From: Ectothiorhodospiraceae bacterium BW-2
GTDB lineage: Bacteria; Pseudomonadota; Gammaproteobacteria; Thiohalomonadales; Thiohalomonadaceae
Direction: 5' to 3'
Length of the DNA stretch: 64,000 nucleotides
Assembly (NCBI GenBank): GCA_008375315.1
Contig: CP032507.1
Span: forward strand, 3,248,071 to 3,312,070
Shown here piece after piece: positions 21,266-37,112 of this stretch (positions are counted from its first letter, which is position 1; each line of letters begins with the position of its first letter). The translations under genes and the position numbers were made by a program. The notes beneath the pieces were generated by a model that did not search any database, was not told the origin of the DNA, and saw only the letters and a program-made list of their open reading frames with translations.

Positions 21266-22480
21266 CTAAAACACCATATCTATCACAATAGAGCTGATAC
21301 TATTCTCCTGATCCCACCTTTCAAGATCATCGACATACCAGAGCAGGGAGGGCTTTATCGCACTTTTAACTCGATCAAATTGCAGTTTAAGCGCGATCGT
21401 ATCACTCAAATCGTATCGTCCCCCGATGGAGAGGGTACGCTGATCTAACTCGCCTTCAGCGACCGCCATCGCTATTAAGGGATCGAGCTCCGGTGCCACA
21501 CTTACCGGCGTCACACTCTCAGATCTCACTCCTGACACCATAAAATAGGGAGTCCAGCGTTGGAGCCGGTAGCCGAGACTGATATAGGCCGAGAGGTTAT
21601 CGGAGATCGCCAAAGTCTCGCTCTCGATTCGCCCTAGAGCGCTCTGAACTCGCCACCTCCCCTTTTCGTACCCCACACCAAAGCTATAGTAGCGTAAGGT
21701 TTTATCCCTCATCGCCAACTGCTCAGCCAGTGTCTGATTCCCGTTGGCCACGATTTGGCTGAGCTGGGTGATTGAGGGATCTTCATCGTTCAACTTAAGC
21801 CCCGATAGGGTAAGTTTATAGAACCAATCGATACCCTGATACTCAGCTAAGAGACCGTAGAGAGGAGAGTCGCTAAAATCGAGCTGATTGGCATTAAAGC
21901 CGGGAAACTTCTGATTTGCCAGACCATAAAAGCCCTTCACTTTGAACACCCCCTGCTTAAGCGATAGATATTGACTGAGATCGACACCATCGAATCGGGA
22001 GACATTAATCACGCCATAGTAGTCAACCGGCGGTCTAACCCAGAGGTAGGAGTAACCTATATCACGCGAATCGGAACGAAAAAAGATATCGAGCCCTAAG
22101 CGACCTAAGCGGAGTTCGGCCTCAGGTAATAGCCTATATTTTAGGTAGGCCCAGCTCAATTCAGGGGTAAAACTCTCATCATAGCGGTAGCGACTCAGTA
22201 GCTGAATTCCACCGCTTAACTGCTCATTAGCACGATAGTTAAGCTGCACTCCAGCCCTCGTATCGAGTTGATAGGAGAGGGTATCAATCCCCCTCCCGGG
22301 CTGTGCCACATTGCGCACATAGACTGCATCATCGTCACTATTATAGACAGCCCCAACAGAGGCAAAACCGTTAAGCGCTAAACTCTCGGAGAGCGCCATA
22401 GCATACAGGGGGAGAGAGGCGAGTGCGGTAACGACCGCTAGCGCTAATCTGCTCCCTGTTTTAATCTTTAAAGCGTTCAT
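21266..22480 (-). CDS. Outer-membrane porin-like protein
   Basis: 404 residues from the ATG at 22480: signal peptide (cleavage about YAMA|LSE), then beta-barrel sequence including a GVQLNYRANEQLSGGIQLL strand pair and LWVRPPVDYYGVINVSRFDGV. It is a paralogue of the porin at 16324-17550 with the same C-terminal pattern (LKLQFDRVKSAIKP corresponds to LKSQLDWIRPRAGD). A GTG nine codons upstream would also be in frame but adds a non-signal extension. It overlaps the end of the HD-GYP gene by 20 bp. Confidence 0.82.
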   Translation of the reverse strand: MNALKIKTGSRLALAVVTALASLPLYAMALSESLALNGFASVGAVYNSDDDAVYVRNVAQPGRGIDTLSYQLDTRAGVQLNYRANEQLSGGIQLLSRYRYDESFTPELSWAYLKYRLLPEAELRLGRLGLDIFFRSDSRDIGYSYLWVRPPVDYYGVINVSRFDGVDLSQYLSLKQGVFKVKGFYGLANQKFPGFNANQLDFSDSPLYGLLAEYQGIDWFYKLTLSGLKLNDEDPSITQLSQIVANGNQTLAEQLAMRDKTLRYYSFGVGYEKGRWRVQSALGRIESETLAISDNLSAYISLGYRLQRWTPYFMVSGVRSESVTPVSVAPELDPLIAMAVAEGELDQRTLSIGGRYDLSDTIALKLQFDRVKSAIKPSLLWYVDDLERWDQENSISSIVIDMVF

Positions 22481-24026
22481 AGATCGATAATACCCTCTCT
22501 TTTTCACTTATTAAGGCTGAAATCATGTCAGGATCAAACTGCTCTCCCGACATCTCCTCCATGTAAGCAAAGACTTTGTCATAGCTCCACGCCGGCTTAT
22601 AACAGCGGCGACTACAGAGAGCATCAAAGACATCGGCCACCGCCGTAATTCGCCCCTCCACACTAATCGCCTCCCCCTTTAAGCCATTCGGATAGCCCTT
22701 ACCATTCCAATGTTCATGGTGATCACGAGCGATACGGCTAGCGAGTTGAATAATGCGTTTATTCGACTTAGCCAGCATACGATACCCCTCTTCAGCATGG
22801 GTTTTCATCACCTGCCACTCCTCTGCATCGAGTTTGCCGGGTTTATTTAAAATTGCATCGGGAATAGCAATTTTGCCCACATCATGCAGCGGCGAGGCCC
22901 ATTTGATTAATTCAGCCTGTTTACTGCCTAAGCCAATCTTGTTTGCCAACAGCTCTGAGAGTTCAGAGACCCGAGTAATATGGTTGCCAGTCTCTTTAGA
23001 GCGCGTCTCAACCGCCCCCCCGAGCAGATAGACCATCTCCCACTGCGCCTGCTCAATCTCATCGTTTAAGATAATATTTTCAAACGCCACCAAAGCGTTG
23101 TGGCAGTAGATCGAGGCGAGTTTAGAGTGGAGTGGCGTAAACCCCTCTAACGCCCCACAGATAGCCAAAATATAGCGCTCCTGCTCCTTACCTAGATAGG
23201 AGGCGACAAAGTAGTTATCGTCATAGTAGAAACGGAATCGTTCTTGCTGCTGATTAATATCATTCAGAAACCCATCGGGGAGCTTTTTGACGACATTGCC
23301 ACTATTAGGATCGTAATCCCCTGTTCCGGCGATGATCCGCAAATTTTGCCCCTTCTCATATCCGGCCATCATGTGATCTATCTTCAGCAGCGCCGCATCA
23401 TCACCAAACTTAAATAGGGAGAGTATTTGCAACATCACCCCTTGGGCAAATTCGCCTAAGTTAGGTGATTCAAATATCTTTGCCGTTGACTCCAGCACCT
23501 TCTCTAACCCCGATTTCATCTGCTCTTGCTGCACAATAAACTCATAGGTTTTCAGACAGGCGTGCATGAGCGTGGTCAATTTGGTGCGAGTAAGCTCGGT
23601 CTTCTCTTTATAGTCGTTAATATCGTAACGACTAATCACCTCCTCCTCGGGTGCCTGCCCCGGTTGACCGGTACGCAACACAATGCGGGTAAAGTGGTTA
23701 TGATCGATTGCCCGAATATCTTTAACCAGATCGAGCCCGGCACTCTCGCTCTCCATCACCACATCGAGCAGACAGACGGCAATATCGTGGTGCTGTTGAA
23801 ATAGCTCACGCCCTTCCGCCGCGCTATAGGCACTAAAAAATTGTAGCGGCCGACCATGAAACTGGTACTCCCCGAGTACCATTTTGGTCACTTTGTGAAT
23901 CTGCTCCTCATCATCGATAATCGCAACCTTCCAAGGTTTATACAGCGGCTCGGTCATTGCGCCTGTTTGCGCAGCGCCCTCAGACTCATCCTCATCGATA
24001 AACTCAAAATCGTCCTCATCTATCAT
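22461..24026 (-). CDS. Response regulator with DUF3369 and HD-GYP domains
   Basis: About 521 residues: an acidic N-terminus, a receiver (IIDDEEQIHKVTKMVL, acceptor in VCLLDVVMES, LRTGQPG loop), a GAF-like DUF3369 region, and an HD-GYP phosphodiesterase domain with [33 protein letters not shown] and VADVFDALCSRRCYKP. It would degrade cyclic di-GMP under control of phosphorylation. The ATG at 24026 is preferred because an earlier in-frame start runs into the kinase gene. The cognate kinase is probably the one encoded directly upstream. Confidence 0.92.
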   Translation of the reverse strand: MIDEDDFEFIDEDESEGAAQTGAMTEPLYKPWKVAIIDDEEQIHKVTKMVLGEYQFHGRPLQFFSAYSAAEGRELFQQHHDIAVCLLDVVMESESAGLDLVKDIRAIDHNHFTRIVLRTGQPGQAPEEEVISRYDINDYKEKTELTRTKLTTLMHACLKTYEFIVQQEQMKSGLEKVLESTAKIFESPNLGEFAQGVMLQILSLFKFGDDAALLKIDHMMAGYEKGQNLRIIAGTGDYDPNSGNVVKKLPDGFLNDINQQQERFRFYYDDNYFVASYLGKEQERYILAICGALEGFTPLHSKLASIYCHNALVAFENIILNDEIEQAQWEMVYLLGGAVETRSKETGNHITRVSELSELLANKIGLGSKQAELIKWASPLHDVGKIAIPDAILNKPGKLDAEEWQVMKTHAEEGYRMLAKSNKRIIQLASRIARDHHEHWNGKGYPNGLKGEAISVEGRITAVADVFDALCSRRCYKPAWSYDKVFAYMEEMSGEQFDPDMISALISEKERVLSIYERFKD

Positions 24027-24051
24027 ATCAGTTTCAACTTCTCTCTCACTA

Positions 24052-25500
24052 TCAATCCAATCGCTCTGGAAGTATGATTGTAAAACGGCACCCCTCATTA
24101 GGCGCACTATGACAATCGATACTCCCCTTTAATTTTTGGGTAACTAAGTTATAGACAATATGCATGCCTAAGCCAGTTCCCCCTTGACCACGCCGAGTGG
24201 TATAGAAGGGATCAAAAATTTTATCCAGACTCTCTTGCGCCATCCCTTTGCCACTATCACGATAGCGTAGCTCAATCCCTTGAGGCTGTTGTGTCAGAGT
24301 GATCGCGATCTCCCCTGCCACTGAGCCGTCCTCAAAACCGTGGATAATCGAATTAGAGATAAAATTGGTCATTATTTGTGCCAGAGCACCCGGGTAGGTG
24401 GTTATCTCTACCTTATCGGCAAAGTCGGTAATCAGTTCGATTTGGGTATGTTTCCACTTCGGTCGCAGGCTACTTAACACCTCTTGCAGGTAGTCACCAA
24501 GGTTAAGCGTTCTAATCTCCTCAATCGATTGGTCCACCGCCACCTGTTTAAAGTTTTTAATCAGTTCAGCGGCGCGAGTTAGATTGGCTTGCAACATCAC
24601 CACCCCCTCATCGACCTGCTCGACATAGTTCACTAGCGAGGATTTTTTCATCTTCCCCTCCTGTAGTAGCAGCGAGAAGCGGCGACTCTCCTCCGCTAGG
24701 TGTGAGGTGGCGGTAATACTGACCCCTAACGGCGTATTGATCTCATGGGCCACACCGCTAACCAATCCGCCTAACGCCGCCATCTTCTCCGATTTGATTA
24801 ACTCAGATTGCGCCGCCTCTAATGCAGTTGTTCGCTCGGCCACCCGCTGCTCTAGGGTCTCGTTCTGCCGCTCAATAATAGTCATCATGCGGTTGTTTGA
24901 GGCGATTAGATAACCTAATGTCGCGATAAACATTAGGTTAATCACCCCTAAGATAATCCCTGAGAGGTGGAGATGGGAGGCGACCGTCTCCGATCTAGAG
25001 AGGGTCGCAATAAAATTAGCGTAACTCTGCTGCCGAAAAGTTTGCGCCATGGTCTCAAACTGCTGTAGCTCAACATTCATCCGCTCGCTATCGGGCAGCC
25101 ACACATCGGCGTTGACAGCGCCGTTAATCATCTGTTGCGCCACCTCGCCACTAGCCGAAGTATAGCGATCTAGCTGCGCAATCAGCCGCTCTACTTCGAG
25201 CTTAACGGCCTCATAGCGCGTTAACTCATCGAGTGCGGCCCGCATCTCGACAACCACTCTGTTTGCGTCAACAACCATCTCGATTTCGCCAATGAGTACC
25301 GCCTGTAGATAGAGATCTTTAATCTGCTCTAAACGAAACAGCGTCTGATCCATCGTCTCAAGTAGCGGATAGTGGTAATCTTTAACACTATCGAGTCGCG
25401 ATCTATTTTCGGCAGAGTTTTTTAAACTAAACCACTGAAAAGCCAAAAAAAGCACTACCGCTATGAGCAGAATATAGTGGTAATTTTTAAACTTGATCAT
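24052..25500 (-). CDS. Membrane sensor histidine kinase
   Basis: 482 residues: TM1 (about 9-24), a helical periplasmic domain of about 150 residues, TM2 (178-200), a coiled coil, the HisKA variant GVAHEINTPLG (acceptor His252), and HATPase with GKGMAQESLDKIF and GGTGLGMHIVYNLV. The core is paralogous to the CBS-kinase at 14593-15849, including the following KNFKQVAVDQS segment. It lies between a PhnD-like protein gene and the REC-HD-GYP gene, a likely sensor-kinase-regulator set. Confidence 0.92.
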   Translation of the reverse strand: MIKFKNYHYILLIAVVLFLAFQWFSLKNSAENRSRLDSVKDYHYPLLETMDQTLFRLEQIKDLYLQAVLIGEIEMVVDANRVVVEMRAALDELTRYEAVKLEVERLIAQLDRYTSASGEVAQQMINGAVNADVWLPDSERMNVELQQFETMAQTFRQQSYANFIATLSRSETVASHLHLSGIILGVINLMFIATLGYLIASNNRMMTIIERQNETLEQRVAERTTALEAAQSELIKSEKMAALGGLVSGVAHEINTPLGVSITATSHLAEESRRFSLLLQEGKMKKSSLVNYVEQVDEGVVMLQANLTRAAELIKNFKQVAVDQSIEEIRTLNLGDYLQEVLSSLRPKWKHTQIELITDFADKVEITTYPGALAQIMTNFISNSIIHGFEDGSVAGEIAITLTQQPQGIELRYRDSGKGMAQESLDKIFDPFYTTRRGQGGTGLGMHIVYNLVTQKLKGSIDCHSAPNEGCRFTIILPERLD

Positions 25501-25552
25501 GCGCTAATATCTTACTTAGGCTCTTTTGAATGGGGGTGGAAACGGGCTATCT

Positions 25553-25571
25553 TGTCACAAGAGAGTGTCAC
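25553..25571. promoter_or_regulatory. TGTCAC direct repeats in the largest gap of the signalling run
   Basis: Two TGTCAC copies (25553-25558 and 25566-25571) 13 bp apart, with an overlapping CTTGT-C-ACAAG palindrome at 25551-25561. They lie in the 84-bp gap between the PhnD-like gene and the kinase gene, the only gap in the run that could hold an internal promoter and operator. No convincing -35/-10 pair was found. Confidence 0.25.
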
Positions 25572-25584
25572 TTTTGTGTCGCCT

Positions 25585-26433
25585 CTATTGCGAATTAAAT
25601 AAATTGAGTAGCTGCTGAGATTGACGCACGACATCGTAATAGCTATCGCCATGAGCCACAAAGCTGATCGGTGCGGCATTTACCTCGCTCTCACTACGAT
25701 AGTTGACTACCGCTTCAGTTATCTTCTCGACTCTCGCCTGATCCAGATGCGGTGCGACCACCAGTGTCGATTCGGGATAGGGGGGGCTCTTGTCGATAAT
25801 ATGAAAAATATCCCCATACTGCTGTACCGATTGAAGGTAACGGTTACGGCTCAAAGCGGCAACATCGATGGAGCCTGCGACCAGCGCCTGTGCTAGCTTT
25901 GAGCTTTTACGCAAGAAAAATATCTCATTAAAGTAGCTCTGATAGTCGATCCCCTGTTTCGATAACATTAAGATAGGTAGCAGATAGCCACTCGTCGAGC
26001 CCACATCTTTTAAACCTAGCCGGCTCTGTTTCAGATCCGCCACCTGTCTGAAGCGACTCTGCTTGAGTGAGACCAGATAGGTCTGAAAACTATCACTCAA
26101 GCCGCCATCACGACTGCGCATCTGAATCGTCGCGACATATCGTAACTGCGGCAGTGTTGACGCTATCTGCACATATTGCGCAGCAGAGATAATCGCAATA
26201 TCGCTCAACTCATGCTGTAACGCATAAGATAGATCATCATAGCGATGGTGGATAACCATCTTTACATCGGTAGCGAGCTGCTGCGACAGGTAGGCGATTA
26301 GCTCGCCATACTGCGCCTCCCGCTCTGTCTGCGTCCGACCGGGGGAGACAGAGAAGATGAGCCCCTCTGAGGCAGAGAGAGACCCACCGAGGGGTAGCAG
26401 TAGCAGCAAAATCAACATGGCTCTCCCTCTCAT
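25585..26433 (-). CDS. PhnD-like periplasmic binding protein
   Basis: 282 residues. Signal peptide (MRGRAMLILLLLLPLGG...), then a phosphonate-type binding fold: FSVSPGRTQTEREAQYGELIAYL, SDIAIISAAQYVQIA, LGLKDVGSTSGYLLPI and a C-terminal GDSYYDVVRQSQQLL that closely matches the paralogue at 39624-40466. Its ATG overlaps the stop of the P-II gene upstream (ATGA), so the two are translationally coupled. No ABC transporter is adjacent; the gene downstream encodes a sensor kinase, for which it is a likely periplasmic ligand subunit (inference). Confidence 0.88.
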   Translation of the reverse strand: MRGRAMLILLLLLPLGGSLSASEGLIFSVSPGRTQTEREAQYGELIAYLSQQLATDVKMVIHHRYDDLSYALQHELSDIAIISAAQYVQIASTLPQLRYVATIQMRSRDGGLSDSFQTYLVSLKQSRFRQVADLKQSRLGLKDVGSTSGYLLPILMLSKQGIDYQSYFNEIFFLRKSSKLAQALVAGSIDVAALSRNRYLQSVQQYGDIFHIIDKSPPYPESTLVVAPHLDQARVEKITEAVVNYRSESEVNAAPISFVAHGDSYYDVVRQSQQLLNLFNSQ

Positions 26434-26774
26434 CGACTCTCCTCCTCTAAGGGTGGCAGCTCAAAGGGGGTCGCCCCTAACAGAGGCTGCATATAGATAA
26501 GCCCGCCGTGGGGACGGTTAATATCGGCCTCAAAGAAGAGATACTCAAACAGCCTATCGGCCTCAGTCGCGGCGACAACGACCGAGAGGGTATCTTTTTC
26601 GGTCGTCTCGCCGACACCGCGATGGCGTAATGGAGTTATCCGTCCTACCCCGCGACCGTGGTGAATATTCACCCGACTCACCCCCTTGTCATAGACCAAC
26701 TTCTCGATAATGGGCGCAGCGCGTCCGACAGGGAGGATGGCGGTAATTAACTTCTGTTCGGTTAATAGTGGCAT
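26430..26774 (-). CDS. Atypical P-II family protein
   Basis: 114 residues with a P-II ferredoxin-like fold (KLITAILPVGRAAPIIEKLVYDKGVSRVNIHHGRGVG, then DTLSVVVAATEADRLFEYLFFEADI). The conserved T-loop tyrosine used for uridylylation in GlnB/GlnK is not present at the expected place, so control by GlnD is unlikely. It is preceded by GGAGG and lies 3 bp after a second P-II gene. P-II proteins sense ATP/ADP and 2-oxoglutarate or related metabolites and often bind membrane transporters; the likely partner here is the DUF1538 protein. Confidence 0.82.
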   Translation of the reverse strand: MPLLTEQKLITAILPVGRAAPIIEKLVYDKGVSRVNIHHGRGVGRITPLRHRGVGETTEKDTLSVVVAATEADRLFEYLFFEADINRPHGGLIYMQPLLGATPFELPPLEEESR

Positions 26775-26777
26775 TCG

Positions 26778-27158
26778 CTACCCCTCCTCCCCCCGCTCCT
26801 GTGCCGCTATTTTGTTTAAAATATCGGCCGGAATAAAGGTCGCTGCCTTCTCCACCGGAGTGACCCATAAAAATCCCATCCCCGGGGTATCGAAGCGACC
26901 GGCACTATAGATACGATCAACAATATGATCGACCTGATCACTAGAGACCACGATATTAATCACCTCCTTTTCGGCATCGATCGTTAGACCTAAAATACCC
27001 AACCGCTCCCGCACCCCGCGACCGAAAGCGTAGTGAATACTCGCCCCCTGCGCCCCCCCCTCCTGCGCTGCCTGCACCACCGCATCGGCGTGCCCTTTTG
27101 GCACCGCAGCCGTAATGAGTGCTACATCGGTTAAAATAACAATCTCTTTTTTACTCAT
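26778..27158 (-). CDS. Atypical P-II family protein
   Basis: 126 residues: the P-II core (VALITAAVPKGHADAVVQAAQEGGAQGASIHYAFGRG), a central EKEVINIVVSSDQVDHIVDRI strand-helix, and an extended C-terminal tail (FIPADILNKIAAQE). It lacks the canonical GlnB T-loop tyrosine context. Its ATG overlaps the end of the DUF1538 gene by 8 bp, a sign of coupled translation and so of a physical or regulatory partnership. It differs in sequence from the adjacent P-II protein, so a heteromeric or two-input arrangement is possible. Confidence 0.85.
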   Translation of the reverse strand: MSKKEIVILTDVALITAAVPKGHADAVVQAAQEGGAQGASIHYAFGRGVRERLGILGLTIDAEKEVINIVVSSDQVDHIVDRIYSAGRFDTPGMGFLWVTPVEKAATFIPADILNKIAAQERGEEG

Positions 27159-28944
27159 GCCCCACTCCCTCTCTCTTTGTCGCTAACGACGGCGCTGCTG
27201 CTAACCCACTATCGTAGTCAAGATGGCGCCGTTTAACCTTCCAGTTGACCCATAACCCAGTTAGTAGCACCGACAGAATCGGCCCAATAGAGGCCATGGC
27301 CAAAATACCAAACCCCTCTACTGCCCCCACAGCGGTGCCAAATCCCAACCCCATGGAGAGCACCAGCGGCACCGTCACCGGCCCTGTAGTCACACCGGCG
27401 CTATCCCAGGCGATATTGACAAACTCCTCGGTCGATAACCAAGTTAATACCACCGCGAGCAGATAGGCCGGCAGCAAAATCGCCACCAAAGGGATGGTAA
27501 AGATAATTTTAGCCACCCCTACCGCAATGCCACAGCCGACTCCGATAGAGACCGCCAGCATCAATAGCCGTTTAGGAAAGGCGCCATTGGTGAGATTCTC
27601 CACCGTCATCCCCAGTGCATTTAGCGCCGGTTCTGCCAGTGTCGCACCAAAGCCCAACACCCAAGCAAATAGCAGCGCGATCAGAATACCGACCAGATAA
27701 CTATAGAGGGGGGAGTCAGCCACCGCCGAAATCGTCGTAAAGGCCGCCGGCACCAGACTACCAGACTGACTACCCAACTTAGCCAGACCGTAGGTTAGCC
27801 CTAGACTGAAGATAATCATCCCCACCACCGCCAAGGCAATGCCGAAAAAGAGGTGCCCGGGCTGCTTTAAGCGCTCCTTTAACACCCACACCAGCACCGC
27901 GAGCAGAAATAGCACCAGCGGCACAATGGCCCGAACCCCACCCACAATCTCACTCCAAGGCGAGCGACTCCACTCAGTTGCCACCTCAGCCGCCTGCGAT
28001 CCGGCCACTGCCAACCTAATCTCATCGACGCTGCTCTGTTGAGAGACAAACAGCGCCAACAACATCACCGCAATAATAGGAAACAGCGACGCGAGCGTCA
28101 CAATGCCAAACCCCGACGAGCTATTGTGCCCCTTACCGGCGGCGGCGGCGATCCCGATCCCAAGACTTAAGACCAGCGGTACGGTGACCGGCCCAGTCGT
28201 TACCGCCCCACTATCCCACGCCAACCCCAATACCGGACGCAAATCACTATCCAGACTCAAATAGAGGGTCAATAGCAGGGTCGGAGTGAGCGTCAGATAG
28301 ATAAGCGGCTTTAGGCTCCAGCCATATAAAAAGCGCAAAGTACCGAGTATCGCCGCTCCCCCCACACCCGCACCCACCACGAGCACCAGCACCTCAGACC
28401 ACTCATTGAGCAGCAGATAGAGATAGGGGGCGGCGTTGACATCGACTATCGAACCGGCAGTCTTTAGCGCCCCGATCGCCGGCTCGGCAAAGGTGACCCC
28501 AATGCCGAGCAGAAACGCAATAAGCAGCACCACCGGCAGTGTTGCCCGAGTCGGCAACGAATGACCAATGAGCTCACCAAACGGCATGAGGCCAATCTTC
28601 AGCCCCTCCATAAATAGCATTAGCCCCATAATCACCGCCACTAGCCCTGCGGCAATGACACCGGCGTCGGTAACCTCTTGGCGCAAAATCACCACCTGCA
28701 GCAGCACCAGATAGAGCGCTAGGGGGACCACCGCCTGCAACTGCTCTTTAAGCCTAACCCCTACGTAGGGGGCAATCAGCCGCCAAGCATCAATTAGACG
28801 CAGTTTAAGCAGTGGCGCTTTATAGGGGATCTCACCTCCCTGCTCATCATAGCGCGGCTTTGGGGTCAGGTGGTTATAGCTCACCCGATAGTGGTGAGCG
28901 TTAACCTCGCGGGTAAAGGCGGCAAAACGGATAGAACGAGGCAC
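27151..28944 (-). CDS. DUF1538 family integral membrane protein, duplicated fold
   Basis: 597 residues, very hydrophobic, with about a dozen or more membrane segments after a 50-residue hydrophilic N-terminus. Two homologous halves are visible: FAEPAIGAL (152-160) repeats as LAEPALNAL (436-444), and AWDSGAVTTGPVTVPLVLS (242-260) repeats as AWDSAGVTTGPVTVPLVLS (512-530). This inverted- or tandem-repeat style points to a transporter or channel; the substrate is unknown. GTG start with AAGGAG at 8 bp. It is translationally coupled to two P-II genes. Confidence 0.88.
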   Translation of the reverse strand: MPRSIRFAAFTREVNAHHYRVSYNHLTPKPRYDEQGGEIPYKAPLLKLRLIDAWRLIAPYVGVRLKEQLQAVVPLALYLVLLQVVILRQEVTDAGVIAAGLVAVIMGLMLFMEGLKIGLMPFGELIGHSLPTRATLPVVLLIAFLLGIGVTFAEPAIGALKTAGSIVDVNAAPYLYLLLNEWSEVLVLVVGAGVGGAAILGTLRFLYGWSLKPLIYLTLTPTLLLTLYLSLDSDLRPVLGLAWDSGAVTTGPVTVPLVLSLGIGIAAAAGKGHNSSSGFGIVTLASLFPIIAVMLLALFVSQQSSVDEIRLAVAGSQAAEVATEWSRSPWSEIVGGVRAIVPLVLFLLAVLVWVLKERLKQPGHLFFGIALAVVGMIIFSLGLTYGLAKLGSQSGSLVPAAFTTISAVADSPLYSYLVGILIALLFAWVLGFGATLAEPALNALGMTVENLTNGAFPKRLLMLAVSIGVGCGIAVGVAKIIFTIPLVAILLPAYLLAVVLTWLSTEEFVNIAWDSAGVTTGPVTVPLVLSMGLGFGTAVGAVEGFGILAMASIGPILSVLLTGLWVNWKVKRRHLDYDSGLAAAPSLATKREGVGHE

Positions 28945-28962
28945 TTCTCTTGCTCCTTTACA

Positions 28963-30282
28963 TTACTGACTCTTTTCGTGATCAAACAGATGTAGCTGGT
29001 GAAAAAAGCCGTGCACACTAAACGGCAGGTGGGCCTCCTCTCTATGCGGCGTAAAGAGAATCGCGCTCGCCACCGCACCGCTTAGACAGGCGATACCGCA
29101 GATAGAGAAGGCCAACGAAAAGTTGCCCATATCCCCCAAAACACCCCCTAAAATCGGAAAGACGATGCCACCTACCCCATAAGATAGAAAGAGGTAGGGG
29201 TAGTTTTGGCCGACACTTCGATTACCGAACTGATCTGCCGTTAGCGCCGGAAAGAGCGCAAAATTGCCGCCGAAATTAAACCCGATTAGCGCCGCCCCCA
29301 AATAGAGCAGATACTCATCTCCCGCCATAGAGGTAAAGAGCAGCAGAATCACCCCCTGACTACCGGCCATGAGCGTCACCGCCCGTTTACGCCCCAAGCT
29401 ATCGCTCACCACCCCCCAAACGATGCGCCCGACGCCATTAGCAATACTAAAAAAGAGCGCCATCGCCGTACCGGCAATCGCACTCGCCTCAGCCACTGAG
29501 TAGCCAGAGGCCTGTAGCGCCTCCATCGGGTAGAGTTTCATGAGCCCAATCGACATCAATCCCGCTCCAGCGCTAACCGCAAAGGTGATAAAGAGCAGAT
29601 AGAACTGCGGCGTATGTAGCATCTCCGTCACCGTAAAGTTCTCCCCCCCGGCACCGGCCTGTTGTGGCGGGGGTTGGTAACCGGCCGGTCTCCAGCCGTG
29701 GGGCGGCATCTTCATCCAGAGGCTACCTAGCAGCACCAACGAGGTAAACAGTACCCCATAGATAATAAAAGTATTAGCCAACCCGACCAGCTCGATTAAA
29801 TGGCCCCAGTTACCGGCCAATTTGACCCACGCCATCGCCCCAAAGCCGAAACCGGCGACCGCCAACCCAGTAATTAGCCCTTTATGGTCGGGAAACCAGT
29901 TCATTCCCACCGCAATCGGCACCACATAGCCTAGCCCGATCCCGATCCCACCAATTAGGCCGACCCCAAAAGCGACCTGCCAAAACCCCTCAGCACCACT
30001 CACTCCCGCTAACAGATAGCCCGCGCCAAGGGTAACGGCTGCCACCTTCGCCAGTTTCGCCGGCCCCCACACATTGAGTTTACGCCCGGCAAAGAGCATC
30101 GACAGCGAGAACGAGGCTAACCCCACCGCAAAGACAATTTGGGTATCGAGTTTACTCCAGCCACTCTCTAGCAGCGCCGGCGTAAAGACCGACCAAGCAT
30201 AGATAGCCCCGAGACAGAGCTGAATTAAGATGGCTCCGAATACCACCAACCAACGGTTCATGATCACAGTTTTTTCAGACAT
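28963..30282 (-). CDS. OFA-type MFS transporter
   Basis: 439 residues with 12 membrane segments and the signature of the oxalate/formate antiporter family: N-terminal RWLVVFGAILIQLCLGAIYAWSVF, GLGYVVPIAVGMNWFPDHKGLITGLAVAGFGFGA and GRIVWGVVSDSLGRKRAV. The family exchanges small carboxylates such as oxalate, formate, lactate or pyruvate. The substrate cannot be told from sequence. It lies between a CBS protein gene (31 bp upstream) and the DUF1538 gene (18 bp downstream). Confidence 0.9.
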   Translation of the reverse strand: MSEKTVIMNRWLVVFGAILIQLCLGAIYAWSVFTPALLESGWSKLDTQIVFAVGLASFSLSMLFAGRKLNVWGPAKLAKVAAVTLGAGYLLAGVSGAEGFWQVAFGVGLIGGIGIGLGYVVPIAVGMNWFPDHKGLITGLAVAGFGFGAMAWVKLAGNWGHLIELVGLANTFIIYGVLFTSLVLLGSLWMKMPPHGWRPAGYQPPPQQAGAGGENFTVTEMLHTPQFYLLFITFAVSAGAGLMSIGLMKLYPMEALQASGYSVAEASAIAGTAMALFFSIANGVGRIVWGVVSDSLGRKRAVTLMAGSQGVILLLFTSMAGDEYLLYLGAALIGFNFGGNFALFPALTADQFGNRSVGQNYPYLFLSYGVGGIVFPILGGVLGDMGNFSLAFSICGIACLSGAVASAILFTPHREEAHLPFSVHGFFHQLHLFDHEKSQ

Positions 30283-30313
30283 ACCGACTCCCTTTCCAGA
30301 CTAACTTTCCAGA

Positions 30314-30751
30314 CTAATGAATCCCATCACGCTCAAGTAGCAGACGCAATGAGAGTTTGACAAAATCCATTGAGGTGACAACGCCGACCACACTCCCCTC
30401 CTCCAATACGGGTAGGCAGGCGTGTTTGTGATCCACAAAGAAGCGCCCCGCCTCGATTAGAGTCATCTCTGTCGTCGCGGCTAGCGTAATCGGCTGCATA
30501 ATCTCCGTCACCGCCGTACGACTCTCTTGTAGATCAAGCTGCTCTAAACCGTAGCGATTGATCAGCTTCAGTGCATGGTTAAGCACCGCCCTATGGGTCA
30601 AAATACCCACTATCTGCCCGCCACTATCGACCACCGGCAGATGGCGAATGTCATGCCGCCGCATCCGCTCTCTCGCCTGATGCATATCTGCGCTCTGCTC
30701 AATCGTTATCGGATTGGAGGTCATTATATCGGCCACCGTATTCATACTCAT
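30314..30751 (-). CDS. CBS domain pair protein
   Basis: 145 residues consisting almost only of two CBS domains (VADIMTSNPITIEQSADMHQARERM and the second half VTEIMQPITLAATTEMTLIEAGRFF, each with a HLPVVD or CLPVLE core). Such proteins bind adenosine nucleotides and adjust partner enzymes or transporters. It may regulate the OFA transporter encoded next to it, or a kinase of the run (inference). Confidence 0.9.
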   Translation of the reverse strand: MSMNTVADIMTSNPITIEQSADMHQARERMRRHDIRHLPVVDSGGQIVGILTHRAVLNHALKLINRYGLEQLDLQESRTAVTEIMQPITLAATTEMTLIEAGRFFVDHKHACLPVLEEGSVVGVVTSMDFVKLSLRLLLERDGIH

Positions 30752-30795
30752 CTTCCCTCTCTGATAATCAATATCGATAAAACGGCGATTATCCC

Positions 30796-31989
30796 CTATT
30801 TAACAGCTACCGGCCAAAAGAGTCTGAATTGTGCCCCGTCACCCAAGCTCGATAGCAGCTCAATATGCCCCCCATGTTCATGGACGATGTGATTCACCAT
30901 CGCCAACCCCATTCCGCTCCCCCCCTCTTTAAAGCGGCTGCTAAAGAAGGGTTGAAAAATTTTGCCCCGCATCTCCTCCGCGATACCGGGACCACTATCG
31001 GCTATCTCTAACAGCAGATAGTCGCCGTCAATCGCCTCGTCACAGATCACACAGCGGCTCTCGCCCCCCTGCCAGCGCGTCAATCGAATCCAGATAGTCC
31101 CCCTACCGGCCATCGCATTGCGGGCATTAATCACCAAATTCATCACCACCTGCTGTAGCTGCACTCGGCTAAAGTGGCCGTAGGGGAGATCGGGCGCGAC
31201 CTCAAGCTGGAACTCTACCGATTTTTCGACAATCACCTGCAACAGAGCAAACTGCTCATTGAGTAGCGCTGCCATATCGATAGACTCCCGATCAGAGGAG
31301 TGGTCGCGGCCATAGTGGAGCATCCGTTTGACCACCTCGGCCTTATGGTGCAGTAGCAGTTGAATCTTCTGATTATAGTTAGCGACCTTGGCGGCGCTGC
31401 ACGGCTCACCGCTAGTTAGGTGCTTCTCTATTAACCGAGAGAGGGCTAGAGTACCGTGAATTGCATTTTTAAAGTCGTGCGCCATGCCATGGACAAACTC
31501 CCCCACAGAGGCGTTTTGGTTGGCAATGCAGAGCTGTTGGTGGAGTTGGCGGATCTCCTCAACCCGCGCCTCTACCTGCTGCTGTAGCGAGTGGGTGTAG
31601 AGCTGGAGCTGAAGATGGGTTGCCACTCGGCTTAACAGCTCCCGCTGGCGAATCGGTTTGGTAATGTAGTCCACCGCTCCAGACTCAAAAGCGGTCACCA
31701 CACTCTCCTCATCGGTACGGGCGGTCAAGAAGATCACCGGTAGCTGCTCCCAGCGCGACTCCCCCTTAATTTGGCGGCAAAACTCTACCCCACTGACTAT
31801 CGGCATATTGTAGTCGAGCAGAACGAGTGAAAAGGGTTGTCGCAGTAGCTGCAACCGTCCACTTTCAGCACTGGTGGCGTAGGCGACTCGATACCCCTCG
31901 TCGCGCAGTATATGGCCAACTAATTGGATATTGTGTGGGTTATCGTCGATAACCAAAATCGAGTAGTTGTGAGTCATTGTGCTATCCAT
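30796..31989 (-). CDS. Receiver-histidine kinase
   Basis: 397 residues from the ATG at 31989: a receiver ([18 protein letters not shown], acceptor [22 protein letters not shown]) is followed by a coiled coil, a HisKA-like helix with [12 protein letters not shown], and HATPase with [10 protein letters not shown] and [19 protein letters not shown]. The receiver is closely related to that of the REC-HD-GYP protein at 36072-37112, and both begin MDSx. It overlaps the stop of the upstream multi-sensor kinase. An ATG at 31977 is also possible. Confidence 0.9.
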
Positions 31990-34900
31990 CCTCAGCGGGC
32001 TCCGACTGTAGCCGCTGTAACTGCTGCTGTAGCTGGCCAAACTCTCGCTGCAACCGTTCGATATCAAAGAGCGTAATCGCCTGCTCCACCCGATAGAGTA
32101 GCGGTTCGATGACCGCAATCTCCCCTTCGGCACGGAAAAAGACCCCTAAATCGTGGCAAAACTGCTCCGCTTCGTCCATAAATCCACTCTCCATCACCTG
32201 TTGTAGTCGAGGCAGAAAGGTTGTCACTAACTGCGTTTTTGCGTCAGTCGAGAGTCGCTGCCGCTCCTGTCCATGATCATCGTCTAATGGCAGCTCCCTC
32301 TCGGGCTCAGCGCGGCTATCACTGTCGCTATCGAATAGAGCGTGTTGATGGGGTAGATGGTGGCTCATACTCTCAATCAGATCGGTAAACTGTAGCGGTT
32401 TGTGCAGACACTCGGCAAAGTAGATGCGATAGCTCTGTAGCTCATCTTCAGTCACCGAGGCCGTGACCGCAATCACCGGAATCACGGCGGTCGCGGCATC
32501 GGCCTGCAGGTGCCGCACAGCGGTGACTCCATCCATCTGTGGCATACGAATATCCATTAAGATGAGATCGGGGTGGTGCTGCCGCGCCTTCTCTAGCGCC
32601 TCCTTGCCATTCTCCGCCTCAAGTAGGGTAAAGGGGTAGGCGGAGAGGTATTCGCAAATGAGCTGCCGGTTAAAGGGGATATCATCGGCTATCAAAATGG
32701 TTGCCGCCTCAAAGCGGTACTCGGTGTGGGTGTGGGAGAGCGTCTCTAGGTTCGCGTCGGGGCAGATCGGAATGTCGGGCAGGGTGAGGGTAAAGCAGCT
32801 CCCCTCCCCGACTCGGCTCACCACGCTAATATCCCCCCCCATCTGCCGCGCTAATTGACGACTGATCGCTAACCCCAACCCGGTTCCGCCATACTTTTTG
32901 GTCGATTGCATCTGCTGCTGCTCAAAGGCGGAGAAGAGGCGAGGTAGAAAGTCAGCGTCAATGCCGATACCGGTATCGCAGATCTCACACTGAAGCGCCA
33001 TTCGCAGCGAATCGGCATCGGCATCGAGCCGAAACGAGACCTTGAGGGTCACCGATCCCTGCTCAGTAAATTTAATCCCGTTATTGATGATATTAATTAA
33101 AATCTGCCGTATGCGGTGCTCATCGGCATAGATCACCTGCGGCAGTGCGTCGGGTAGCTCCATCACCAGTGTGAGCCCCTTATCCTGACACTGTAAACTA
33201 AATATCTGCTCTAAACTACGAAACAGCTTAGGTAGCGAAAAGATCTCCGGGTTAATTTTTAACTTACCCGCCTCAATTTTCGAGAGATCTAAAATGTCAT
33301 TAATAATATGCAGCAGACTGCGGGAGCTAACCTGAATCGACTCCAAAAAGGAGCACTGTTTAGAGTTCAAGTCGGTCGCCAAAAGAAGATCGGCAAAGCC
33401 GATAATCGCATTCATAGGGGTACGAATCTCATGGCTCATATTGGCTAGAAATTCCGATTTGCTTTGGCTCGCCTTTAGCGCATTTTCGCGCTCCTTAAGG
33501 GCCACCTGGCGCGAGTGATCGAGCTGCCGCTCAACCAGTTTACGATGGGTAATCTCCCGCACCAATTTGCGATTCCAGTAGAGAATGGTGAGCAGAATCA
33601 GACTAAATAACAAGACGAGCTGGATAAATAGCGTATAGTCAACCGGATGTTTAAGCTCGATTCCGATCCAACGGTTATAGATTTGGCTGCGCAGCTCCGC
33701 CGGCATCTGTTTAATCGCCTTATTTAGAATCGACACTAGCTCCGGCCTATCTTGTCTGACGCCAATACTGAGCTCAAACTCCTCATCGGCCTTACCCATA
33801 ACACGCAGATTGGTTAACCCCTCCTCCTGAATCACCTGATTGACTGTCGGCAACTCCTGAATAAAGTAGTCGATCTCCCCTTTAGAGAGCGCACGCATTC
33901 CCTCTCTGACGGTGACAAATCTAAACGGCGTTACCATCGGATAGCGCTGCTGTAGTAGCTCATCCACATAGTAGCCGTTGACCACACCGACCCGCTCCCC
34001 GACCAAAGCGCCGATATCGCTCACAAAACGGCTCCTCTCGTGGCCGACGATAATAATCGGAAAACGGATAAAGGGATCGGTAAAGAGCATCTTCTCTCTG
34101 CGCTTAGGGGTATTAACCAACGCGCTTAATAGATCGAGCTCCTTACGAGCCAATTTATCGAGCAGGTAGTGCCACTGCTTTGCAGTCGATATCTGGAAAT
34201 CGAGTTTTAACTCTTTATTAAAGTAGTTGTAGTAGTCGGCAATCATACCGCGATAGGTCTTGCCATCGAACTGCTCAAACGGCGGCCAATCACTATCGAT
34301 CCCCAGCTTTAGCAACGGATGAGACTGTAGAAACTGCCACTCCTGCTCGGTTAGCAGCTTGCCAGTATCGCTTAACTCATTCAACGACTCGCTGTAAAGA
34401 CGCCATTTTTCGATAATAAAGTTGCGCTCCCTAGCAGATATCGCTCGCAGGGTCTTATTGAGAATCGACTGCACTAGCGCCGCGTCAGGGTAGTCTTTAA
34501 AGATGCCGATATGGAGTCTGTTCTCCTGCTCTGCACTAAAACCGAGCTTGATATGGTTAAAGTGGTAGCGGCGGATAATATTGTTATAGGTGACATACCC
34601 TATCGCGGCATCGACCTCCCCGTTTTGCACCATACGCAGCTGTTCAATCGGATTATCGGCATAGATCACCTCAACTCCCGCTTCGGCGCGAATATAGTTC
34701 TCGGCGGCGTGGTGCTGCTTGACTACCGCCACCTTTCTTTTGACCAAGTCGGTACGAGATCGACAGGGGTGGGCTACTCTATCGGAGCAAAAGAGCAGCA
34801 TCGATGCGGCAAAAAGGGGATCGGTTAGCAGAAAATGGGCCTGCGCAAACGGGCTATCGAGCAGAGTACTGTTGCCGATGAGGGTGGGAGAGATCACCTG

Positions 34901-36094
34901 TGCTTGTGAATAGTTAGCGGGTGCCAACTCGATCGGTTTTAATCGAATCGGGTAGCTCAAAATCTCGGCCATCAACTTAATGATGTCGGGATAGATACCG
35001 GTGAGGACACCGTTTTGATGGCGAATAAAGAGCGGCTCCTGATCGCCCAAATCGAGTAGGGCAAGCTCAATCCTCCCCTGCTTCTCTAACCAGTAGTGCT
35101 CCTCCATCGAGAGGGTCAGACCAGAGGGCTGTGGCGGAATATTTTGCTGGTCAAAGACGACAGTGTGCAGATTTTTAACCTCGTCAAGATAGCCAAAGCG
35201 GACAAAATCGTTGGCTAGTTTGGCGATTTTACCCCGACTGATTTTGCCAAGAGGCACTCTGTCGGCCATAATTAACTGGCGGGTCATCTGCGCCTCATAG
35301 TGCAGATGGTCGAGCGAGAGCGGTGACTGGTAGCGCTCTTTAATAATATTAATCGTCTGTTCAGGATGCTCTAACGCATAGTGCCAGCCTCGAATTGAGG
35401 CATCGCGAAAACGGCGGGCTCGATCAGGGTAGTTCTCCGCTTCACTACCGGAGGCAAACAGCATATCGCCATAGGAGTCAATGCCATAGGCCATCGGATC
35501 GATAATATTGACCTCAATCCCACGACTGCGATAGTAGTAGGGTTGATCGGTCAAATAGGCGGCAATGGCATCCATCTTACCCGAGAGGAGATCGTTCGGA
35601 TCGTAACTCATATCGAGCTGCTCGTAGTCAGAAACGCCCTCATTTTGCAGCATGGAGTGGAGAAGATAGCCATCTTCATCAAAGTTAAAACCGAGGGTAC
35701 GGTGCTGAAAATGTTGCGGTTCGCTAATGCCGGAAGAGGCGAGCGTCAGCAATACTAGCGGGTTATTTTGAAATATCGCCGCTAGCGCCACCAGCTCTCT
35801 CCCCTTCATACGAGCTAACAGACCGGAGGCGTTTAGGGTTGCGTACTGAACCCGATTTTGCGCCAATAGCTCAACAATCGAGTCGTTGTGCACATCAGGG
35901 AGGTAGTCGCGAATCTCAACCTCTAGCCCGACATCGCGATAGAACCCCTGCTCTTGTGCCATATAGTAGCCGGCAAACTGAAACTGGTGCTGCCACTGTA
36001 GCTGCAATACCACCGACTCTAGCGCCGACAGCGGCCTAGTCAGTAGCAGTAGCCCTAACAGCGTAAAGAGGTTAAGTCTCATACATAAACGCAT
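31982..36094 (-). CDS. Multi-sensor hybrid histidine kinase (THI5-SBP3-SBP3-HK-REC)
   Basis: 1370 residues. Signal peptide, then a THI5/NMT1-like binding domain ([20 protein letters not shown], about 28-320), two family-3 binding-protein domains (about 335-575 and 590-815; the second has [15 protein letters not shown]), a membrane segment (about 822-842), HisKA ([19 protein letters not shown]), HATPase ([18 protein letters not shown]), a receiver ([23 protein letters not shown]) and a C-terminal helical tail with LFDIERLQ. Three fused periplasmic sensors in series are unusual. GTG 36097, ATG 36094 and ATG 36082 are possible starts. It overlaps both neighbours. Confidence 0.93.
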
Positions 36095-37112
36095 CACGAA
36101 ACTGCTCGCGAATGGCTAAAAAGCGATCTAGGTGGGTAAAAAAGAGGCTCACTAGCTGAGGCTGAAACTGCTGCCCCGACTCCTCTTGTAAGAGGGTGAA
36201 GATCTTCTCATCCGGCCAAGCCCGCTTATAGCAGCGATCACTCCCTAAGGCATCGAAGACATCGGCTAAGGCGACAATGCGGCCATAGAGGTGGATATCC
36301 TCCCCCGCCAATCCGTTAGGGTACCCTTTGCCGTTCCACTTCTCATGGTGCTGTAGCGCAATCGTGGCCGCCGCCTCCATCACTGGCCGATGGGAGGCCT
36401 GTAACATCTCATACCCTAAGCGGGCGTGGGTCATCATAATCTGCCACTCCTCTGGTGTTAGCCGCCCCGGCTTATGTAGTACCGCATCGGGAATCCCCAC
36501 CTTACCAATATCGTGCATTGGGGAGGCGTCGCGCAGTAGAGCACACTCTGCTTGTGATAACCCTAATAGCTCCCCCATCAGTGCCGAGTACTCCGCGACC
36601 CGTTTGACATGGTTGCCGGTCTCTTTTGAACGGGTCTCGGCAATCGCCCCCATGGTAAAGACGACTTCGCGCTGAGTCTGTTCAACCTCCGAGGTTAACG
36701 CCTCTACCCGCCGCTCTAAATGGTGCCGATAGTCGTTTAGTTGCAGGTGGGTGCGAATGCGAGCTAACAGCTCAACTTTACTAAAGGGTTTGGTAACATA
36801 GTCAACCCCGCCGGCGGCAAACCCCTGCTCGACACTCTCGGCATCGTTACGGGCGGTTAGGAAGATCACCGGAATATCGGCCAGTTCAGCCTGTTGCCGC
36901 ATCTGACGACAGGCGGTTAAGCCATCCATGTTGGGCATCATGACATCCATAAGCACCATATCTTGCCGCCGCTCCTGCAGCACCTTTAGTGCCCTTACGC
37001 CATCGGTCGCATAGGCGATGCGATACCGCTCTTCACGCAGGATGGAGGCTAGGAGCTGAATATTTTTAGGGTTATCATCGACAATAAGAATCGAAAAAAT
37101 TTCGCTGTCCAT
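36072..37112 (-). CDS. Response regulator with HD-GYP domain
   Basis: 346 residues: a receiver ([38 protein letters not shown]), a coiled coil, and a complete HD-GYP domain ([54 protein letters not shown]). It is a predicted cyclic-di-GMP phosphodiesterase controlled by phosphorylation. Its ATG overlaps the stop of the hybrid kinase (TAATG), which makes the two a coupled pair. Confidence 0.95.

Follow-up and report, generated by a model that had tools for sequence, protein, structure and literature searches.

A DUF1538 membrane protein gene and two P-II-family genes of Ectothiorhodospiraceae bacterium BW-2 probably (we put it at about 60%) form one cassette, consisting of an UmpAB-related cation/proton antiporter and its own two-paralogue P-II regulator. 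P-II proteins are known to regulate the membrane transport of ammonium, bicarbonate, nitrate, and urea. A P-II gene beside its transporter is familiar; what is new is a P-II partner made of two paralogues with altered ligand sites.

Gene layout

The window is the whole stretch of DNA analyzed here, 64,000 nt of assembly GCA_008375315.1 (contig CP032507.1, positions 3,248,071 to 3,312,070 of the forward strand). The features discussed, in window coordinates, are as follows:

28944..27151, minus strand: DUF1538 membrane protein (PF07556), 597 aa, with a GTG start and a TAA stop
27991..28809, minus strand: first DUF1538 repeat, residues 46-318, UmpA-like, with a nearly invariant E154 and an invariant D244 at predicted helix breaks
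27154..27990, minus strand: second DUF1538 repeat, residues 319-597, UmpB-like; E438 and D514 are invariant, and the repeat probably has the opposite orientation to the first
27158..26778, minus strand: P-II-1, the first P-II-family protein, 126 aa (PF00543, 33.6 bits)
26967..27023, minus strand: short T-loop of P-II-1, residues 46-64, GRGVRERLGILGLTIDAEK, conserved in the P-II-1 family
26774..26430, minus strand: P-II-2, the second, fast-evolving P-II-family protein, 114 aa (PF00543, 14.6 bits; homologous to P-II-1)
26433..25585, minus strand: PhnD-like gene, whose start overlaps the P-II-2 stop

The DUF1538 and P-II-1 genes overlap by 8 bp, P-II-2 follows P-II-1 after a gap of 3 bp, and the P-II-2 stop and PhnD-like start share an ATGA (4-bp overlap). 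The gene positions and spacings given in an earlier, sequence-only reading of this DNA proved exact to the base. A purine-rich stretch precedes each of the four starts. The BW-2 genome carries one DUF1538 gene, and its one canonical P-II gene lies at another site.

These genes sit within an uninterrupted co-directional run on the minus strand (21266-36097), which also encodes a hybrid kinase with solute-binding domains, a kinase/regulator, a CBS protein, a lactate-type MFS protein, a histidine kinase, an HD-GYP regulator, and a porin. The run could be a single long operon private to this lineage. Neither the run nor the two-half make-up of DUF1538 (below) figures in the sequence-only reading.

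Conservation of the DUF1538/P-II pairing

DUF1538 was found in 116 of 299 sampled Pseudomonadota genomes. Among 40 diverse loci picked by DUF1538 alone, a P-II gene adjoined it in 38 (directly downstream in 37 and upstream in one, L102) and was absent from two (L115 and L121). In a further set of split umpAB loci from gammaproteobacteria, P-II lay downstream in 40 of 40, at a distance of up to about 50 bp in 37 and of 112, 301, and 1388 bp in the others. The long fused form was represented by 80 named contigs, 77 of which had room to read the P-II position; P-II-1 was present in all 77 and P-II-2 in 74, the exceptions being one masked locus (L148) and two that lack P-II-2 (L186 and L199). These sets overlap slightly, as some contigs belong to the same genome (e.g., L143 and G302). 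With about four P-II genes per genome, adjacency would be expected by chance at roughly 0.3% of loci, a rough estimate that rules out chance given 38/40, 40/40, and 77/77. The coupling of DUF1538 to P-II, which the sequence-only reading had staked on conservation of the pairing in other genomes, thus survived the survey.

The titles of the long-fusion contigs name Gamma-, Alpha-, Beta-, and Zetaproteobacteria, Bdellovibrionota, Sulfuricurvum, and Lentisphaerae, although many are metagenome-assembled genomes with possible mis-binning. Among cultured organisms, carriers are Hydrogenovibrio halophilus, Thiomicrospira microaerophila, Marinospirillum perlucidum, Thiorhodococcus mannitoliphagus, and Pseudomonas strains, among others, and DUF1538 with P-II also occurs in five annotated plasmid records, including those of Clostridia, Methylocystis, and Chelativorans. 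Pairwise distances of DUF1538 and P-II-1 were correlated (r = 0.68, against at most 0.17 in 500 permutations), for which shared ancestry alone would also suffice.

The DUF1538 protein and its relation to UmpAB

The window protein belongs to the DUF1538 family (PF07556, 358 bits over two stretches; gathering score, 22.6) and is a one-chain fusion of two homologous halves, UmpA-like and UmpB-like, rather than two subunits. The halves are 32% identical to each other (E = 9e-25). With the NCBIfam models, residues 64-299 align to UmpA (E = 6.5e-59) and residues 337-574 to UmpB (E = 7e-48), although the scores, 199 of the required 490 bits (NF041627) and 163 of 500 bits (NF041628), lie below the equivalog cut-offs. 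Contrary to the sequence-only reading, DUF1538 is not uncharacterized. When co-expressed in Escherichia coli, the Halomonas zhaodongensis proteins UmpA and UmpB conferred pH-dependent Na+(Li+,K+)/H+ antiport on everted vesicles, and the two form a heterodimer (PMC5484666). This antiporter role of split DUF1538 members dates from 2017, is a single report, and was obtained without a cognate P-II protein, which is not mentioned in that paper (PMC5484666); P-II is therefore not required for activity. By homology, the window protein is predicted to be a cation/proton antiporter as well. A machine-learning study also lists DUF1538 among the features tied to the optimal pH for growth (PMC13255231), an association that fits a pH or cation role.

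Clear UmpA relatives occurred in 98 of 369 gammaproteobacterial genomes, all under the UmpA equivalog cut-off; none of the 369 had an umpA gene above it, beside which a P-II of the characterized type could have been sought. The DUF1538 label persists in annotation because the 490-bit cut-off is not reached in these genomes.

The AlphaFold model of the window protein is confident (pLDDT 90, pTM 0.87). In this model, each half most likely has seven helices. The third and sixth appear to break at the motifs AEP and WDxxxVTTGP; the acidic residues there (E154, D244, E438, and D514) show little or no variation among 57 sequences. An odd number of helices per half leads one to expect that the second half is inverted, and the loop charges roughly agree. 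No convincing PDB fold match was found for the whole model (Foldseek best E = 0.04, TM 0.13; VIA-align best Z = 6.1, root mean square deviation 4.5 over 116 residues) or for the N-terminal half (Foldseek best E = 0.96; VIA-align best Z = 5.5), which does not by itself establish a new fold.

P-II proteins with altered ligand sites

P-II-1 exceeds the PF00543 cut-off of 25 bits and thus belongs to the P-II superfamily. P-II-2 falls under this cut-off and is tied to the P-II-1 family by profile-to-profile comparison (hhalign, E = 3e-19); the single P-II that accompanies split umpAB also matches the P-II-1 family (E = 5e-20). In GlnB and GlnK, Q39 contacts 2-oxoglutarate, K90, R101, and R103 contact the ATP phosphates, and Y51 is the site of uridylylation. 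In our alignment, Q39, K90, R101, and R103 are invariant in 12 GlnB/GlnK proteins and replaced in all DUF1538-linked P-II groups, P-II-1 and P-II-2 included. In P-II-1, the respective substitutes are R (91%), a hydrophobic residue, T (91%), and I or V, and the Y51 column is empty. The T-loop of DUF1538-linked P-II proteins has a median of 17 residues versus 22 in GlnB, i.e., it is typically five residues shorter. The signal for the pair is probably not canonical ATP/2-oxoglutarate, and the metabolite sensing attributed to it in the sequence-only reading finds no support in these sequences, from which the canonical ligand residues are gone in both proteins.

P-II-1 retains G35, G37, G87, and G89, still has a basic residue at the K58 position, and has gained conserved Arg residues in the T-loop. 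Its T-loop is more conserved than the protein overall (0.72 versus 0.64), which is what a fixed partner would demand. The T-loop of P-II-2 is variable (conservation, 0.33), and mean identity is 25% for P-II-2 versus 52% for P-II-1, showing that P-II-2 evolves fast.

Proposed mechanism and alternatives

GlnK plugs AmtB and SbtB partly blocks SbtA, both by T-loop insertion (PMC8352866, PMC10710835). By analogy with these pairs, the P-II proteins most likely serve as a dedicated cytoplasmic gate of the antiporter. The conserved acidic residues at the DUF1538 helix breaks could carry cation and proton; P-II-1, with its short conserved T-loop, would most likely bind DUF1538 from the cytoplasmic side and set antiport activity; and P-II-2 would assemble with P-II-1, as a mixed trimer or as stacked trimers, and tune the response. 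According to a review, the known P-II partners are trimeric transporters, from which a DUF1538 trimer would be predicted. Counting against the gating model are the scores under the UmpA and UmpB equivalog cut-offs, the activity of UmpAB in E. coli without a cognate P-II, the two of 40 loci that lack P-II, and the absence of P-II-2 from L186 and L199. A bolder and more tentative proposal, to which we give somewhat less than even odds, is that this is a widespread, undescribed P-II switch in which a hetero-oligomer of two ligand-site-altered paralogues gates an Na+/H+ (K+/H+) antiporter of unassigned fold and so couples a cytosolic signal to pH or cation homeostasis.

The alternative that deserves most attention, although we consider it rather unlikely, is that the fused subfamily carries a cargo other than Na+ or K+ (another ion or a small metabolite) and that P-II regulates this traffic. 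The window subfamily is only 32-38% identical to split UmpA relatives, its scores stay under the equivalog cut-offs, and the UmpAB paper stands alone; however, the acidic residues and motifs are common to split and fused members, and the growth-pH association of DUF1538 also argues against another cargo. Less probable still is a P-II pair that senses nothing and acts as a constitutive accessory subunit for assembly or stability of the antiporter. The near-obligate linkage is compatible with such a role, as are the replaced Q39, K90, R101, and R103 if these are read as lost sensing, but UmpAB was active in E. coli without a cognate P-II (PMC5484666), and P-II-1 keeps G37, G87, G89, and K58 and gains its T-loop Arg residues as if binding another ligand.

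We see only a small chance that DUF1538 is instead a sensor or membrane anchor whose P-II proteins relay a message elsewhere. This formally fits the gene order, and the sequestration of GlnK by AmtB offers a precedent, yet no third conserved gene presents itself as a target and the cassette moves intact among unlike neighborhoods. Finally, the sequence-only reading had linked the cassette to the PhnD-kinase sensory module of the window. A functional membership of this kind is very improbable: the ATGA overlap and the unbroken co-directional run in the window speak for it, but about 120 other loci, some of them from the same family, show no PhnD, MFS, or CBS homologue in the vicinity of DUF1538, so the PhnD-like protein and kinase can be ruled out as members of a conserved module and the link is local to the window. 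The locus is better explained by a P-II-regulated UmpAB-type antiporter cassette than by a broad sensory module.

Comparison with known systems

UmpAB belongs to the same DUF1538 family, with UmpA and UmpB each aligning to one half of the window protein, and UmpA/UmpB-like pairs elsewhere also have a downstream P-II gene. In contrast to UmpAB, which comprises two genes and was studied without P-II (PMC5484666), the window has one longer chain, scoring below the equivalog cut-offs, and two P-II genes. GlnK-AmtB shares the P-II gene adjoining its membrane target and gating by T-loop insertion (proposed here for DUF1538), but AmtB is of another transporter family and GlnK is one protein, which has the Q39, K90, R101, R103, and Y51 lost from DUF1538-linked P-II and a T-loop five residues longer. 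SbtB-SbtA likewise joins a divergent P-II-like protein with non-canonical ligand use to a sodium-coupled transporter. SbtA, however, is a bicarbonate symporter of another family, and the window has two P-II paralogues; the C-terminal CGPxGC motif of some SbtB homologues is absent from the P-II-1 and P-II-2 window sequences, whose neighbor is DUF1538 and not sbtA. PII-NG beside czcABC (Sant'Anna et al. 2009, as cited in PMC7726332) is also a divergent P-II beside a proton/cation exporter. Compared by gene linkage, it differs in having an RND exporter and a single P-II, and the window cassette has no adjoining RND gene.

In the open-access literature searched, DUF1538 or UmpAB is not connected with P-II in any paper, and the pairing is provisionally unreported. 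If DUF1538 antiporters are P-II-gated, P-II sensing would extend to cation and pH homeostasis across a large part of Pseudomonadota, and the near-constant "nitrogen regulator" beside DUF1538 would be explained, its copied annotation name probably being misleading.

Split, fused, double, and probable triple forms

The cassette occurs in four architectures: (a) split umpA-umpB with one P-II; (b) a DUF1538 fusion of about 500 aa with one P-II; (c) in Clostridia, a fusion as in (b) whose P-II protein is about 222 aa long, with two P-II domains in two of the three scanned; and (d) as in the window, two P-II genes beside a long fusion of about 595 aa. Locus L088, from the window's own family, encodes a 684-aa DUF1538 protein (L088:5201-7255, minus strand) beside a 364-aa open reading frame (L088:4110-5204, minus strand) in which two P-II domains are clear (E = 6e-7 and 6e-19) and a third is probable (E = 2e-4 with the single-P-II profile). 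The third domain scored 25.8 with the P-II-1 profile, whereas none of 30 shuffled copies exceeded 16.6, and this open reading frame is possibly a P-II trimer in one chain. In a tree from a short alignment, with weak deep support, the clostridial double P-II groups with the single P-II and not with P-II-1 or P-II-2; P-II duplication therefore probably occurred more than once. The double and triple chains suggest that unlike P-II domains assemble together, without fixing the stoichiometry, and are natural material for testing trimer asymmetry.

Two kinds of apparent fusion were rejected as artefacts: a P-II fused to another protein in L148, caused by a masked stretch of N, and P-II open reading frames of 266-543 aa overlapping DUF1538, caused by choosing the most upstream start. 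In L102 and L163 (1835-2185), P-II precedes the DUF1538 fusion instead of following it. L112 holds a second P-II of the DUF1538-linked type (L112:9766-10128) about 3.5 kb from the cassette, on the opposite strand and with no DUF1538 of its own in the stretch examined. Two DUF1538 systems lie side by side, each with its own P-II, in L101 (fused and split) and in L163 (a fusion of about 500 aa and a long fusion).
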